From: Curtobacterium caseinilyticum
Lineage (GTDB): Bacteria; Actinomycetota; Actinomycetes; Actinomycetales; Microbacteriaceae
DNA: 64,000 nucleotides
Assembly: GCF_030363035.1 (NCBI RefSeq)
Contig: NZ_JAUCMN010000004.1
Location: 124,001 to 188,000 of the forward strand
Direction of reading: 5' to 3'
A model generated the notes under the pieces. The model worked only from the letters and a program-made list of their open reading frames with translations. It ran no database searches and was not told where the DNA came from. Numbering within the stretch: position 1 is the first letter of the stretch; the number at the start of each line of letters is the position of its first letter. Shown here piece after piece: positions 4,415 to 62,998 of this stretch. The translations under genes and the position numbers were made by a program.

Positions 4415-4464
4415 GGACGGACGGGAGGCACGGTGCCAGCTGGCACCGTGCCTCCCGTCCGTCC
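4415..4464. repeat. 50-bp perfect palindrome, GACGGGAGGC family; likely bidirectional terminator
   Basis: Perfect inverted repeat centred at 4439/4440 with arms GGACGGACGGGAGGCACGGT and complement, and AGCT at the centre. It lies between convergent aroG and the PASTA kinase gene, so it may terminate transcription from both sides, although there is no T-tract. The GACGGGAGGC...GCCTCCCGTC core recurs at least ten more times in this window. Confidence 0.85.
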
Positions 4465-4549
4465 CGTGCGCGTCCCGCGTGCCGACGACGGAGCTGGTCC
4501 GCACCGTGAGCCGCGCCGCGGTGCGCCGCCGCGGCGCCGCGCCGCGCGG

Positions 4550-6574
4550 CTACTGCTCGTAGGAGAGCGTGATGGTGTCGCCGCGGTACACCGTCGATCC
4601 CTGCACGGGGTCGATCGCACGCACGGGCAGGGAGGACTTCCAGTCGTAGAACCGGCAGAGCACGTTCGTGCAGTCCGGCACCTCCACCTGGAGGCCGAGG
4701 TTCTCGAGCGTCGAGGTGGCGTCGTTGATCGTCTTGCCGGCGACGTCGGGCAGCGTGATCGGTGTCGGACCGCGTGAGACGACGAGGTCGACGGCCGAGC
4801 CCTGCACGGCGGGGGAGTCCTCGACCTCCGCCGAGATGACCTGCCCCCTCGGGACCTCGTCGCTGTACTGTTCCTGCTGCGCCCCGACCGTCAGCCCGAC
4901 GCCGTCGAGGGTCGACGTCGCCTCGTCCACCGTCTTGCCCGTGACGTCGGGCACCGGCCCGAGCGACACCGTCAGGGTCACGGGACCGCGTTCCCCGTAG
5001 GTCTCGACCGACGACAGGTCGACGGTCTGCCCGTCCGTCCCGAGGCCCTTCGCCGCGATGACGGTGTCCTTCGGGGCGTCGGCGGAGAACTCGTACTGGT
5101 CGTCCTGCAGCTGGAAGTCGTCGTCGAGCGCGGCGGTCACCTTGGAGAGCGGCTGACCGACGATGGCCGGCAGGGTGATCAGGCGCGGGCCGCCGGAGAC
5201 GACGATCTGCACGGCGGTGCCCTTGCGGACCTCACGCTCGGCAGCGGGCTTGGTGGTCGACACCTGGCCCTTCGCGACGACCGCGTCGTACCGGGTGCCG
5301 GTCCGGGCCGCGGGCTGGAGTCCCTGTGCCTGCAGGAGCTGCCGCGCCTGGGCGACGGACTTGCCCGTGACCTCGGGGATCCGGACGTTGCCGAGCGGCC
5401 CCGGCCCGAGTGCCCAGCCGACCACGCCGGCGATGATCGCGAGCACCACGACCACCGCCAGCACGATCCAGCCGCGTCGGCGACGCTTGGCGGACTTGTC
5501 CGCGAGCCGTTGTCCTGCGGGCGAGAGGGCGCCGGCCGGCGCTCCCGTGCGACGGGGACCGGGCGCACCGCGCCGCGCGGGGGCAGCCGGCGTCCCACCG
5601 GTGGACCCGGCGATCACGCGCGTCGCGTCCGTGGCGTCGCCGCTGTCCGCGGACGCCGGCGAGGAACCGCCGGCCGGCAGGATCGCGGTGGCGTTCTCGG
5701 GACGCAGCACCGCGGTGCGGTACTGGCCGGTCGCGCGCTGCAGGTCGCCGGACATGTGGTCGAGCATGTCGCGCGCGTCCCGCGGTCGGTCGTCGGGGTC
5801 GCGGGCCGTCGCCCAGGCGACCAGGTCGTCGAGCTCCGGCGGCACCCCGGGCTCGGCGGCGCTCGGCACCGGGACCGTGTCGTTCGCGTGCTGGTACGCG
5901 ATCTGCATCGGCTGGTCGCCCTTGTAGGGCTGCTCACCCGTGAGCATCTCGTAGAGCATGATGCCGAGCGCGTAGATGTCGCTGCGCGAGTCGGCGGCGC
6001 CACGGGTGACGAGTTCCGGGGAGAGGTACGCGATGGTGCCGAGCAGGGCGGCCCCGGTGGCGGTGTTCGCCGTCGTCGCCCGCGCCAGGCCGAAGTCGCC
6101 GAGCTTGATGCGGCCGTCGTCGGCGAGCAGGACGTTCTCGGGCTTGAGGTCGCGGTGCACGATGCCGGCGCGGTGCGCGGATGCCAACCCGGCGAGCACG
6201 GCACGCAGGATGTCGGTTGCCTGCTCCGGGGTCAGGGCCCGGTGCTCCTGCAGCAGGTCGCGCAGGGTGATGCCCGGGATGTACTCCATCACGATGTAGG
6301 CGGTGTCGTCCTCGGCGCCCTGGTCGTACACGCCGACCAGGTTCGGGTGCGACAGGCGGGCGGCGGACCGGGCCTCCTGGATGAAGCGGTCGCGGAACGC
6401 CTGGTCGTCGGCCAGGTGCCCGTGCATGATCTTGATCGCGACGCGACGCTCGAGCCGGACGTCGGTGGCGAGGTACACGGTCGCCATGCCGCCGCGGGCG
6501 ATGCGCGAGCGCACGCGGTACCGCTGGTCGATCATCCGACCGATCATCGGGTCCGTGGCGGCGTTCGTGGTCAT
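4550..6574 (-). CDS. Membrane serine/threonine protein kinase with PASTA repeats (PknL-type)
   Basis: Receptor-like kinase sensing cell-wall fragments and phosphorylating cytoplasmic targets. In the 674-residue reading: kinase domain with glycine loop (27-34), lysine K48, HRDLKPEN (140-147) and DFG (160-162); a juxtamembrane linker; one membrane helix (369-390); then four PASTA repeats to the C-terminus. The last repeat holds a cysteine pair (C635, C640). I chose ATG 6574 because TAGAAT lies exactly 7 nt upstream, the leaderless layout; the ATG at 6583 overlaps that box. The neighbouring Rv2175c-type gene is the known PknL substrate gene in mycobacteria, which supports the PknL assignment over PknB. 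Confidence 0.9.
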   Translation of the reverse strand: MTTNAATDPMIGRMIDQRYRVRSRIARGGMATVYLATDVRLERRVAIKIMHGHLADDQAFRDRFIQEARSAARLSHPNLVGVYDQGAEDDTAYIVMEYIPGITLRDLLQEHRALTPEQATDILRAVLAGLASAHRAGIVHRDLKPENVLLADDGRIKLGDFGLARATTANTATGAALLGTIAYLSPELVTRGAADSRSDIYALGIMLYEMLTGEQPYKGDQPMQIAYQHANDTVPVPSAAEPGVPPELDDLVAWATARDPDDRPRDARDMLDHMSGDLQRATGQYRTAVLRPENATAILPAGGSSPASADSGDATDATRVIAGSTGGTPAAPARRGAPGPRRTGAPAGALSPAGQRLADKSAKRRRRGWIVLAVVVVLAIIAGVVGWALGPGPLGNVRIPEVTGKSVAQARQLLQAQGLQPAARTGTRYDAVVAKGQVSTTKPAAEREVRKGTAVQIVVSGGPRLITLPAIVGQPLSKVTAALDDDFQLQDDQYEFSADAPKDTVIAAKGLGTDGQTVDLSSVETYGERGPVTLTVSLGPVPDVTGKTVDEATSTLDGVGLTVGAQQEQYSDEVPRGQVISAEVEDSPAVQGSAVDLVVSRGPTPITLPDVAGKTINDATSTLENLGLQVEVPDCTNVLCRFYDWKSSLPVRAIDPVQGSTVYRGDTITLSYEQ

Positions 6575-6581
6575 CGGCGGC

Positions 6582-6587
6582 ATTCTA
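6582..6587 (-). promoter_or_regulatory. -10 box of leaderless PASTA kinase transcript
   Basis: TAGAAT on the minus strand, followed by 7 nt and then ATG at 6574. This spacing puts the transcription start at the start codon. Confidence 0.6.
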
Positions 6588-61445: not shown

Positions 61446-61451
61446 TAGATT
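61446..61451 (+). promoter_or_regulatory. -10 box of leaderless dipeptidase transcript
   Basis: TAGATT, then 7 nt (ACGGGAC) and ATG 61459. On the minus strand TAATCT at 61448-61453 may serve the DUF3043 gene, so the two divergent -10 boxes overlap. Confidence 0.65.
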
Positions 61452-61458
61452 ACGGGAC

Positions 61459-62904
61459 ATGACCGACACCGACCAGCACAGCTCCGCGACCGACCCCGCG
61501 CTCCTCGACGCCCTCCGCGAACACGTGCAGGGCGGGCTCCCGACCACGATCGCCGACCTCTCCGCGCTGGTCCGGCTGCCGTCGGTGTCGTGGTCGGCCT
61601 TCGACCCGGCGCACGTGCAGGCGAGCGCGGAGGCCGTCGCGGACCTGGCCCGCTCGACCGGGGTCTTCGCCGAGGACGCGGTCCGCATCGTCCGCTCCGC
61701 CGTCGACGGGGACACCGCCACCGCCGACGCGGACGGGCGCGAGCTCGGGCAGCCCGCCGTCCTCGCGGTCCGTCCGGCGCGGAACGGCAGGCCCACCGTC
61801 GTGCTCTACGCGCACCACGACGTGCAGCCCCAGGGCGACGACGCCCTCTGGGACACCCCGCCGTTCGAGCCCACCCTGCGCGGCGACCGCCTGTACGGCC
61901 GGGGCGCCTCCGACGACAAGGCCGGCGTGATGACCCACGTCGCCTCCCTCCGTGCGCTGCACGCGCAGTTCGGCGACGACCTCGAGCTGGGCGTGGTCCT
62001 GTTCGTCGAGGGCGAGGAGGAGTTCGGCTCCCGGTCGTTCCGCACGTTCCTCCGCGAGCAGCGGGAGCACCTGGCCGCCGACGTCATCGTGGTGGCGGAC
62101 AGCGACAACTGGTCGACCGAGGTCCCGTCGATCACGGTCTCCCTCCGCGGCAACGTCACGTTCAAGCTCGCCGTGACGACGCTCGAGCACGCGAGCCACA
62201 GCGGCATGTTCGGGGGAGCGGCGCCCGACGCCGTGATCCCGATGGTGCGCCTGCTCGCCTCGCTGCACGACGACGCCGGCTCGGTCGCCGTCGAGGGGCT
62301 CACCGCGTACGACGCCGACGTGCCCGAGCGCTCCGACGCCGAGCTCGCGTCGGACGCAGCGCTGCTCGAGGGCGTGCAGCCCGTCGGCACCGGCCCCGTG
62401 CTGTCGCGCATGTGGTTCCAGCCGTCGATCACCGTCACCGGGCTCGACGTCCCGAGCGTCGCGAACGCATCGAACACGCTGCTGCCGACCGTGGCCGCGC
62501 GTGTCTCGGTGCGCGTCGCCCCCGGACAGTCCGCGACCGACGCGTACGCCGCCGTCGAGCGTCACCTCCGCGCCCACGTGCCGTTCGGCGCGAAGCTCGA
62601 GATCACCGAGGTCGACACCGGTGACGGCTTCCTCGTCGACACCGCCGGCTGGGCCGTCCAGGAGGCCCGCACCGCCATGCACGAGGGCTGGGGCAACCCG
62701 GCCGTCGAGCAGGGCATCGGCGGATCGATCCCGTTCGTGTCGGACCTCGCGGCCGAGTTCCCCGAGGCGCAGATCCTGGTGACCGGCGTCGAGGACCCCG
62801 ACACCCGCGCGCACAGCCCGAACGAGTCGCAGCACCTCGGCGTGCTGCACCGGGCGATCGCCTCCGAGACGATCCTGCTGGCCCGCCTGGCCACGCGCGC
62901 CTGA
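61459..62904 (+). CDS. M20-family metallopeptidase (dipeptidase)
   Basis: Cytoplasmic zinc dipeptidase or amidohydrolase, 481 residues. The metal site includes LYAHHDVQPQGDDALWDTPPFEP (first His and following Asp), GRGASDDKAG, and EGEEEFGS with the catalytic glutamate. A lid/dimerisation domain follows (about 225-380). ATG 61459 has a leaderless promoter. Substrate is not defined; cytosolic nonspecific dipeptidases of the PepD/CNDP type are closest by motif. Confidence 0.9.
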   Translation: MTDTDQHSSATDPALLDALREHVQGGLPTTIADLSALVRLPSVSWSAFDPAHVQASAEAVADLARSTGVFAEDAVRIVRSAVDGDTATADADGRELGQPAVLAVRPARNGRPTVVLYAHHDVQPQGDDALWDTPPFEPTLRGDRLYGRGASDDKAGVMTHVASLRALHAQFGDDLELGVVLFVEGEEEFGSRSFRTFLREQREHLAADVIVVADSDNWSTEVPSITVSLRGNVTFKLAVTTLEHASHSGMFGGAAPDAVIPMVRLLASLHDDAGSVAVEGLTAYDADVPERSDAELASDAALLEGVQPVGTGPVLSRMWFQPSITVTGLDVPSVANASNTLLPTVAARVSVRVAPGQSATDAYAAVERHLRAHVPFGAKLEITEVDTGDGFLVDTAGWAVQEARTAMHEGWGNPAVEQGIGGSIPFVSDLAAEFPEAQILVTGVEDPDTRAHSPNESQHLGVLHRAIASETILLARLATRA

Positions 62905-62954
62905 CGACCCGCGGTCCCGTCCGGTCGCTGCAGTTGCCGCGACCGGCGGACCAC

Positions 62955-62998
62955 CGGACGGGAGGCCCGTGGCGACGCCGCCACGGGCCTCCCGCCCG
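62955..62998. repeat. GACGGGAGGC-family inverted repeat
   Basis: CGGACGGGAGGCCCGTGGCG pairs with CGCCACGGGCCTCCCGCCCG with one mismatch around an ACGC loop. It follows the dipeptidase gene and probably ends its transcript. Confidence 0.8.

Follow-up and report, generated by a model that had tools for sequence, protein, structure and literature searches.

Repetitive extragenic palindromic (REP) elements and bacterial interspersed mosaic elements (BIMEs) are palindromes of about 40 bp that lie at the 3' ends of genes in high copy number. DNA uptake sequences (DUS) are another system that invites comparison. In the available portions of two reports, genomes with DUS are described as having inverted pairs at terminators, dialects and a depletion in islands (PMC3630211, PMC7371117), with one DUS every ~400-1100 bp (PMC7371117). 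For other uptake sequences, the accessible part of a third source gives ~10% as inverted repeats (PMC1939737). Here we analyze a stretch of 64,000 nucleotides from Curtobacterium caseinilyticum (contig NZ_JAUCMN010000004.1, positions 124,001 to 188,000; hereafter the window), in which a first-pass annotation made from the letters alone had noticed a family of dispersed intergenic palindromes. These palindromes appear to consist of two inverted copies of a lineage-specific DNA motif of ~24 bp that is distributed over the whole chromosome. By analogy with DUS, we propose a chromosomal motif akin to an uptake signal, with inverted pairs that act as putative terminators, a reading to which we assign a probability of roughly one half.

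The usual pair is a unit of 40 bp, consisting of a 10-bp arm, a 20-bp mostly self-complementary interior and a second arm, and the interiors fall into few classes. The exact pattern GACGGGAGGC-N(10-30)-GCCTCCCGTC was searched with the reversed motif as control. The genome holding the window (G000; 3.45 Mb in 23 contigs) contains 179 such pairs, 177 of them with a spacer of 18-22 nt, while the control gave none. The exact 10-mer occurs 281+284 times across this genome as compared to 9+9 for its reversal. Hence, both the paired form and the 10-mer are far above chance genome-wide, which bears out the family seen in the window. Exact pairs were found in 65 of 66 Curtobacterium genomes, with 10 to 195 apiece; G163 is the sole genome of the genus without them. 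In a scan of the bacterial family, pairs were present in six of the seven genus members and in none of 292 genomes sampled from 84 other genera. A named collection holds at least 116 pair-bearing stretches; among the 80 listed, 78 are from Curtobacterium, one from Actinomadura and one from a metagenome-assembled genome of Cellulosimicrobium. A viral contig collection, searched whole, yielded a single stretch with a match, and no BLAST match to one copy was obtained in a phage collection.

All seven copies claimed for the window were recovered. Three are perfect palindromes, as had been stated: 4415-4464 (50 bp, core 4420-4459) at the convergent junction of a DAHP synthase and a PASTA kinase gene, 8541-8592 (52 bp, core 8547-8586) at the convergent junction of an Rv2175c-like and a polyprenyl synthetase gene, and 60448-60491 (44 bp, core 60450-60489) 3' of a dihydroorotate dehydrogenase gene. 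The first two junctions keep their pairs in other species, and the copies at 4415 and 60448 indeed have the centre GGTGCCAGCTGGCACC in common. The other inverted pairs are located at 10643-10711 (core 10647-10686), upstream of the mraZ position and with an extra right half at 10688-10711 in which the right arm is repeated in tandem; at 31634-31679 (core 31636-31675), 3' of a pseudouridine synthase gene; at 36259-36304 (core 36263-36302), between convergent genes; and at 62955-62998 (core 62957-62996), 3' of an M20 peptidase gene. Our gene calls, which are home-made from codon usage both in the window and in the samples described below, agree with the proposed context, in which four copies are flanked by convergent genes and three follow plus-strand genes, the latter at 52, 191 and 398 nt from the last called stop. 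As RNA, every copy folds better than 200 of 200 shuffles, with z values from -3.5 (the copy at 10643) over -5.3 (31634) and -8.9 (8541) to -10.8 for 4410-4470, whose predicted fold has -60.2 kcal/mol. In the window itself, the 10-mer taken singly and with at most one mismatch is no commoner than expected by chance: there are 27 matches, shuffles average 23.5, and 27 is reached in 32 of 100 of them. In an Rfam scan of the window mraW RNA alone was matched (RF01746, 11380-11478, 54.5 bits); the palindromes match no described RNA family, and phage and terminator scans returned nothing for them. A copy of a different inverted-repeat family, CGAACCACG...CGACATCGAACCAG, directly follows the 60448 pair (60530-60592), and samples C1 and C2 of the same genome contain further multi-copy inverted repeats at gene ends, for example long hairpins with ACGCAACG...CGTTGCGT arms and GGGCGTACCTGGTC pairs.

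A position at gene ends is also observed outside the window. Allowing two arm mismatches, a 464-kb sample contains 35 elements: convergent gaps have 13, codirectional gaps 21, divergent gaps one and called genes none. The interiors of two of these elements, C1 45711 (the sole divergent one) and 178568, are not palindromic, and both are probably chance matches. With a stricter filter, a 784-kb sample contains 23 convergent, 28 codirectional and one divergent element, again none in called genes; counting gaps of 60 bp or more, this sample has 67 convergent, 195 codirectional and 81 divergent ones. The median distance from the upstream stop to the pair is 33 nt (n=74). Two convergent junctions were read in the window and in 40 further genomes, taken from 63 for which a full-length polyprenyl synthetase orthologue is listed. 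There, 94.2% and 94.4% of the stem cells are paired, compared to 87.5% (maximum 90.4) and 81.2% (maximum 86.4) after re-dealing of the 3' halves, and 25 and 44 stem cells, respectively, are altered on both sides across species. Two facing motifs downstream of a gene would give a transcript that folds into an 18-bp hairpin and would terminate transcription from both sides, for which reason selection would keep the pair. Of the terminator role suggested in the first-pass annotation, the gene-end position and the stable hairpins hold and stem covariation supports it further; the T tract of a canonical intrinsic terminator was found neither downstream of the hairpins in the 784-kb sample nor by the terminator scan. 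Taken together, the pairs fit bidirectional terminators rather than transposition.

Transposition of a REP-like element had been suggested as well; spread of a miniature inverted-repeat transposable element (MITE) would be a similar possibility. Such an origin would account for palindromic extragenic repeats of ~40 bp that occur in many copies at 3' ends, and in these properties the pairs do resemble REP elements. However, the Y1 transposase domain of REP-associated tyrosine transposases (RAYT; Pfam PF01797), for which a search had been recommended, is encoded in none of the 66 genomes of the genus; the control was positive in 5 of 14. Moreover, identical gene junctions are occupied in many species. 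At the two convergent junctions a pair with at most four arm mismatches is present at 38 of 40 and 35 of 41 loci having both flanking genes (the latter including an unconvincing pair in G337), and the strict 40-nt form at 29 of 40 and 32 of 41. Across ten relatives, the seven window gaps contain the pair in 10/10, 8/10, 7/10 (10643), 7/10 (31634), 1/1 (36259), 4/9 (60448) and 6/8 (62955) of the comparable cases; this table misses a 39-nt pair of G331 and excludes a spurious row at gap 35465. For the 36259 pair, gene order is comparable in G312 only, where the pair is present, and a pair also lies 3' of the same gene in G330. Five of the nine relatives comparable at 60448 have none. By-eye inspection revealed no clean empty site at the seven window junctions; the spacer there differs throughout. 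The 40-bp interior at 62957 is letter-identical in G000, G316, G331 and G342, beside spacer that is unalignable by eye. From the occupied junctions and this shared interior we conclude that the copies are mostly inherited, with some gain or loss. On account of the missing transposase and the shared junctions we reject a transposon or REP origin, which we consider highly improbable.

The first-pass annotation had further judged that the sequence is conserved beyond the needs of a terminator. This is borne out, and it leads to a feature that had gone unnoticed there: the arm of the pairs also occurs as a lone, asymmetric motif of ~24 bp, roughly CGGMCKGGAGGCnCGnnnCRCnYC. Aligned copies from genes read CGG, A/C, C, G/T, GGAGGC, A, CG, followed by a second block C-R-C-n-Y-C. 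Lone copies and pairs have the same fixed bases (C.GGAGGC.CG...C) and the same free positions (2 with A/C, 4 with G/T, and 11), and the second block is mostly absent from pairs. In the pairs, columns 3, 5-10, 12, 13 and 17 are invariant or nearly so, and columns 2 (A/C), 4 (G/T/A), 11, 14-16 and 18 are free.

With pairs masked, the 10-mer occurs 28 times in the 464-kb sample (by our reading 17 intergenic and 11 in called genes), where Markov models of order 4-6 expect 2.7-7.8; with order 8 the expectation rises to 26 and the excess vanishes, as the 9-mers of such a model include the motif. Genes totalling 693 kb contain the 10-mer 22 times versus 4.3 in synonymous shuffles, whereas its reversal gave 4 versus 4.2. 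For the half-site CGGACxGGAGGCnCG (at most one mismatch) the genes of G000 contain 38 copies with x=G versus 5.1 expected (maximum of 40 shuffles 9), and 9 with T (2.3 expected), 6 with A (2.5) and 2 with C (1.2). Ranked by fold, forms of the motif take the first four places among 11,095 10-mers in G000 genes and the first three among 10,314 in G214 genes. The bipartite form GGAGGCnCGnnnCRCnYC exceeds codon shuffles 4- to 9-fold in all five samples (G000 23/3.9, G299 8/2.0, G163 8/1.4, G214 3/0.5, and 9/1.0 in pooled loci excluding L009 and L023, which are not Curtobacterium), with 0-1 copies for each of two altered control motifs. Codon bias was rejected as the source, since synonymous shuffles do not reproduce the lone copies. 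This null suffers from overdispersion: it is exceeded 2-3 fold by many CGAGCA-type 10-mers, and CGGGAGGCAC is eighth by P value in G000. Therefore, the weight rests on fold rank, on the reversed and altered controls and on the cross-genus scan. Among bare 9-mers in G000 genes GGAGGCACG alone is enriched (33 vs 7.6), while GGAGGCGCG (34 vs 50.0) and GGAGGCCCG (32 vs 55.5) are under expectation.

These lone copies bear on a rival explanation, in which the element would be a genus-specific terminator and nothing else, gene conversion would maintain the similarity of its arms, and the lone copies would be decayed halves. Such a terminator would agree with the 3'-end position, with the hairpin covariation and with interiors that recur as a few classes and switch block-wise at one site. 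It would not explain why lone copies lie in genes in several frames and on both strands with the motif kept in orthologues, why they are also found in G163, a genome devoid of exact pairs, and in a second genus, g35, without G-form pairs, or why they possess a second block that the pairs mostly lack. We therefore regard it as doubtful.

In the window, lone motifs occur within called genes at 17564-17587 (plus strand), 24677-24700 (plus), 25059-25082 (minus) and 30426-30449 (minus). The copy at 24677 is kept in several relatives despite changes at other bases. At 27236-27259 (minus) and 27273-27296 (plus, T form) two lone motifs face outward as the left and right members of a pair, located where the gene called at 27232 starts; this arrangement (27236-27296) is kept in most of the ten relatives. 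Weaker matches in called genes are found at 39492-39515 (minus), 54060-54083 (plus), 55028-55051 (minus), 58341-58364 (minus, T form) and 62655-62678 (plus), the last of which is well conserved, probably for reasons of the protein.

Position 4 defines dialects. Exact pairs using GACTGGAGGC (T form) were detected in 59 of 66 genus genomes, and the ratio of T-form to G-form pairs varies from 88 (48) in G214, 75 (45) in G312 and 53 (25) in G330 to 1 (177) in G000. Lone T-form copies, counted as the total minus twice the exact pairs and thus including imperfect pairs, follow the same pattern, with 187 in G214, 175 in G312, 154 in G330, 126 in G304 and 122 in G355, and 14-32 in G000, G316, G257, G321, G299, G163 and G295. 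In genes of G214, the one T-form genome analyzed there, the half-site has x=T 15 times (1.4 expected), G 9 times (1.2) and A or C never. Hence, the species preference at this position differs alike in lone copies and in pairs. The top-fold 10-mer in genes of G163 is a neighbouring form of the motif, GGAGGCTCGT (9 vs 0.93), and this pairless species also has an over-represented gene form of its own, GGAGGCTCG (35 vs 7.9; L209-L224).

Among 299 genomes of the family, bipartite copies are numerous in all seven Curtobacterium genomes (68, 68, 118, 131, 151, 156 and 158) and in all six of genus g35 (G035, G110, G167, G218, G260 and G298, with 76, 76, 85, 87, 104 and 152, in ascending order of count), with reversed controls of 1-7 in both genera. 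The other 286 genomes reach at most 29 (G055 of g55, control 2), followed by 17 (control 10). Since g35 has the bipartite motif but 0 G-form pairs (T-form pairs were searched in Curtobacterium alone), the lone motif looks older than the pairs. Plasmids pTCL, pS16 and D40, of which 450 of ~1,317 kb were sampled, contain no bipartite motif, no pair and three half-sites, compared to chromosome samples with 22-50 bipartite motifs per Mb and, counting the arms of pairs, 62-272 half-sites per Mb. The plasmids have a GC content of 66-68%, and G163 at 68% still has 34 bipartite motifs per Mb; the three plasmids share a related RepA and are not independent. Exceptions on mobile DNA are one copy on an 11.5-kb linear C. 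citreum record, a weak match on pTCL and one copy on each of two Microbacterium plasmids. The latter are a near-identical pair (96% over 51 bp) beside catabolic genes on a Microbacterium sediminis plasmid (L294 6001-6051) and a second such pair on an M. paraoxydans plasmid; transfer from Curtobacterium is possible.

An asymmetric bipartite motif spanning about two helical turns with fixed positions could also be the site of a hypothetical sequence-specific chromosomal protein, for example a nucleoid organizer or a segregation or repair factor, with the inverted pairs at gene ends as a strong form of the site that doubles as terminator. The genus-level specificity, with a second genus sharing the motif, and its absence from the plasmid samples would suit such a protein. 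Binding alone, however, needs no perfect palindromic, covarying interiors. Furthermore, strand skew of the bipartite motif is absent in the five samples (plus/minus 15/9, 7/7, 3/3, 4/8 and 11/17; the numbers are small and the replichores of the contigs are not known), which disfavours a polar use like that of Chi or of the FtsK-orienting polar sequences (KOPS). We consider this protein unlikely, albeit less so than a mere terminator.

According to the uptake-signal reading, the motif itself would be a tag of self-DNA, most likely a signal preferred in natural transformation, and would have spread via biased uptake and recombination. This would explain the lone copies in genes, the drift of dialects and the absence from plasmids. 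Lone copies over-represented on both strands including coding sequence, inverted pairs placed and folded like terminators, dialects common to both forms and depletion on the sampled plasmids, with the exceptions mentioned, together make up what is by analogy the architecture of DUS, though with a motif that is sparser and more often paired. Several observations weigh against it. The bipartite motif recurs every ~20-45 kb, far from about one copy per kb, and 358 of 565 exact 10-mers in G000 sit in exact pairs, far above the ~10% quoted for other uptake sequences. This low density and high degree of pairing contribute to keeping our confidence at the stated level. Half-site enrichment is weaker in G299 (x=G 10 vs 1.4, with no motif form in the top 14 by fold), and in G163 it is divided among x=G (4), x=T (3) and x=C (5), with 0.3-0.5 expected each. 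ComEC is encoded in 64 of 66 genus genomes, yet 10 of 14 controls including E. coli have it as well; a regular-expression search for pilus ATPases, which is a weak method, gave no match; and absence from plasmids equally fits any slowly accumulating chromosomal motif. In G163 a ComEA-like protein adjoins ComEC. Natural competence in an actinobacterium has a precedent in Micrococcus luteus, which takes up DNA by means of Flp pili as far as the accessible part of PMC6370729 describes.

The portion of PMC5031613 available describes uptake sequences for two Gram-negative families, and a literature search, covering neither subscription papers nor preprints, found no description of the present motif. 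We tentatively suggest, as a possibility falling somewhat short of an even chance, that Curtobacterium, together with a second genus from the same family, owns a DUS system with dialects outside Neisseriaceae and Pasteurellaceae, in high-GC Gram-positive bacteria, and that its inverted pairs are now a standard terminator. If true, this would be an independent actinobacterial case, and tagging of self-DNA would arise repeatedly; natural transformation would be implied in an abundant genus of plants and leaf litter, and foreign DNA in the genomes of this genus could be recognized with the help of the motif. Whatever its function, an explanation is needed for a 24-bp motif that is confined to the chromosome, has dialects and also builds ~180 putative terminators per genome.

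Compared to known systems, the Curtobacterium pairs resemble intrinsic (Rho-independent) terminators in having a stable GC-rich hairpin near the stop codon, often between convergent genes, but differ by the absent T tract and by their strongly fixed arm sequence. With REP elements and BIMEs associated with RAYT they have the ~40-bp palindromes, the location at 3' ends and the high copy number in common, whereas here the Y1 transposase is missing, positions are common to species and the motif is also found alone in genes. The motif further resembles the DUS of Neisseriaceae and the uptake signal sequences (USS) of Pasteurellaceae. As far as the available parts of PMC3630211, PMC7371117 and PMC1939737 describe them, these are likewise short, asymmetric and over-represented in both orientations, within genes and more so between them, with terminator-associated inverted pairs, lineage dialects and depletion in islands. 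The Curtobacterium motif differs from them in sequence and in its actinobacterial host, is longer, bipartite and far sparser, and has most of its exact 10-mers in pairs.

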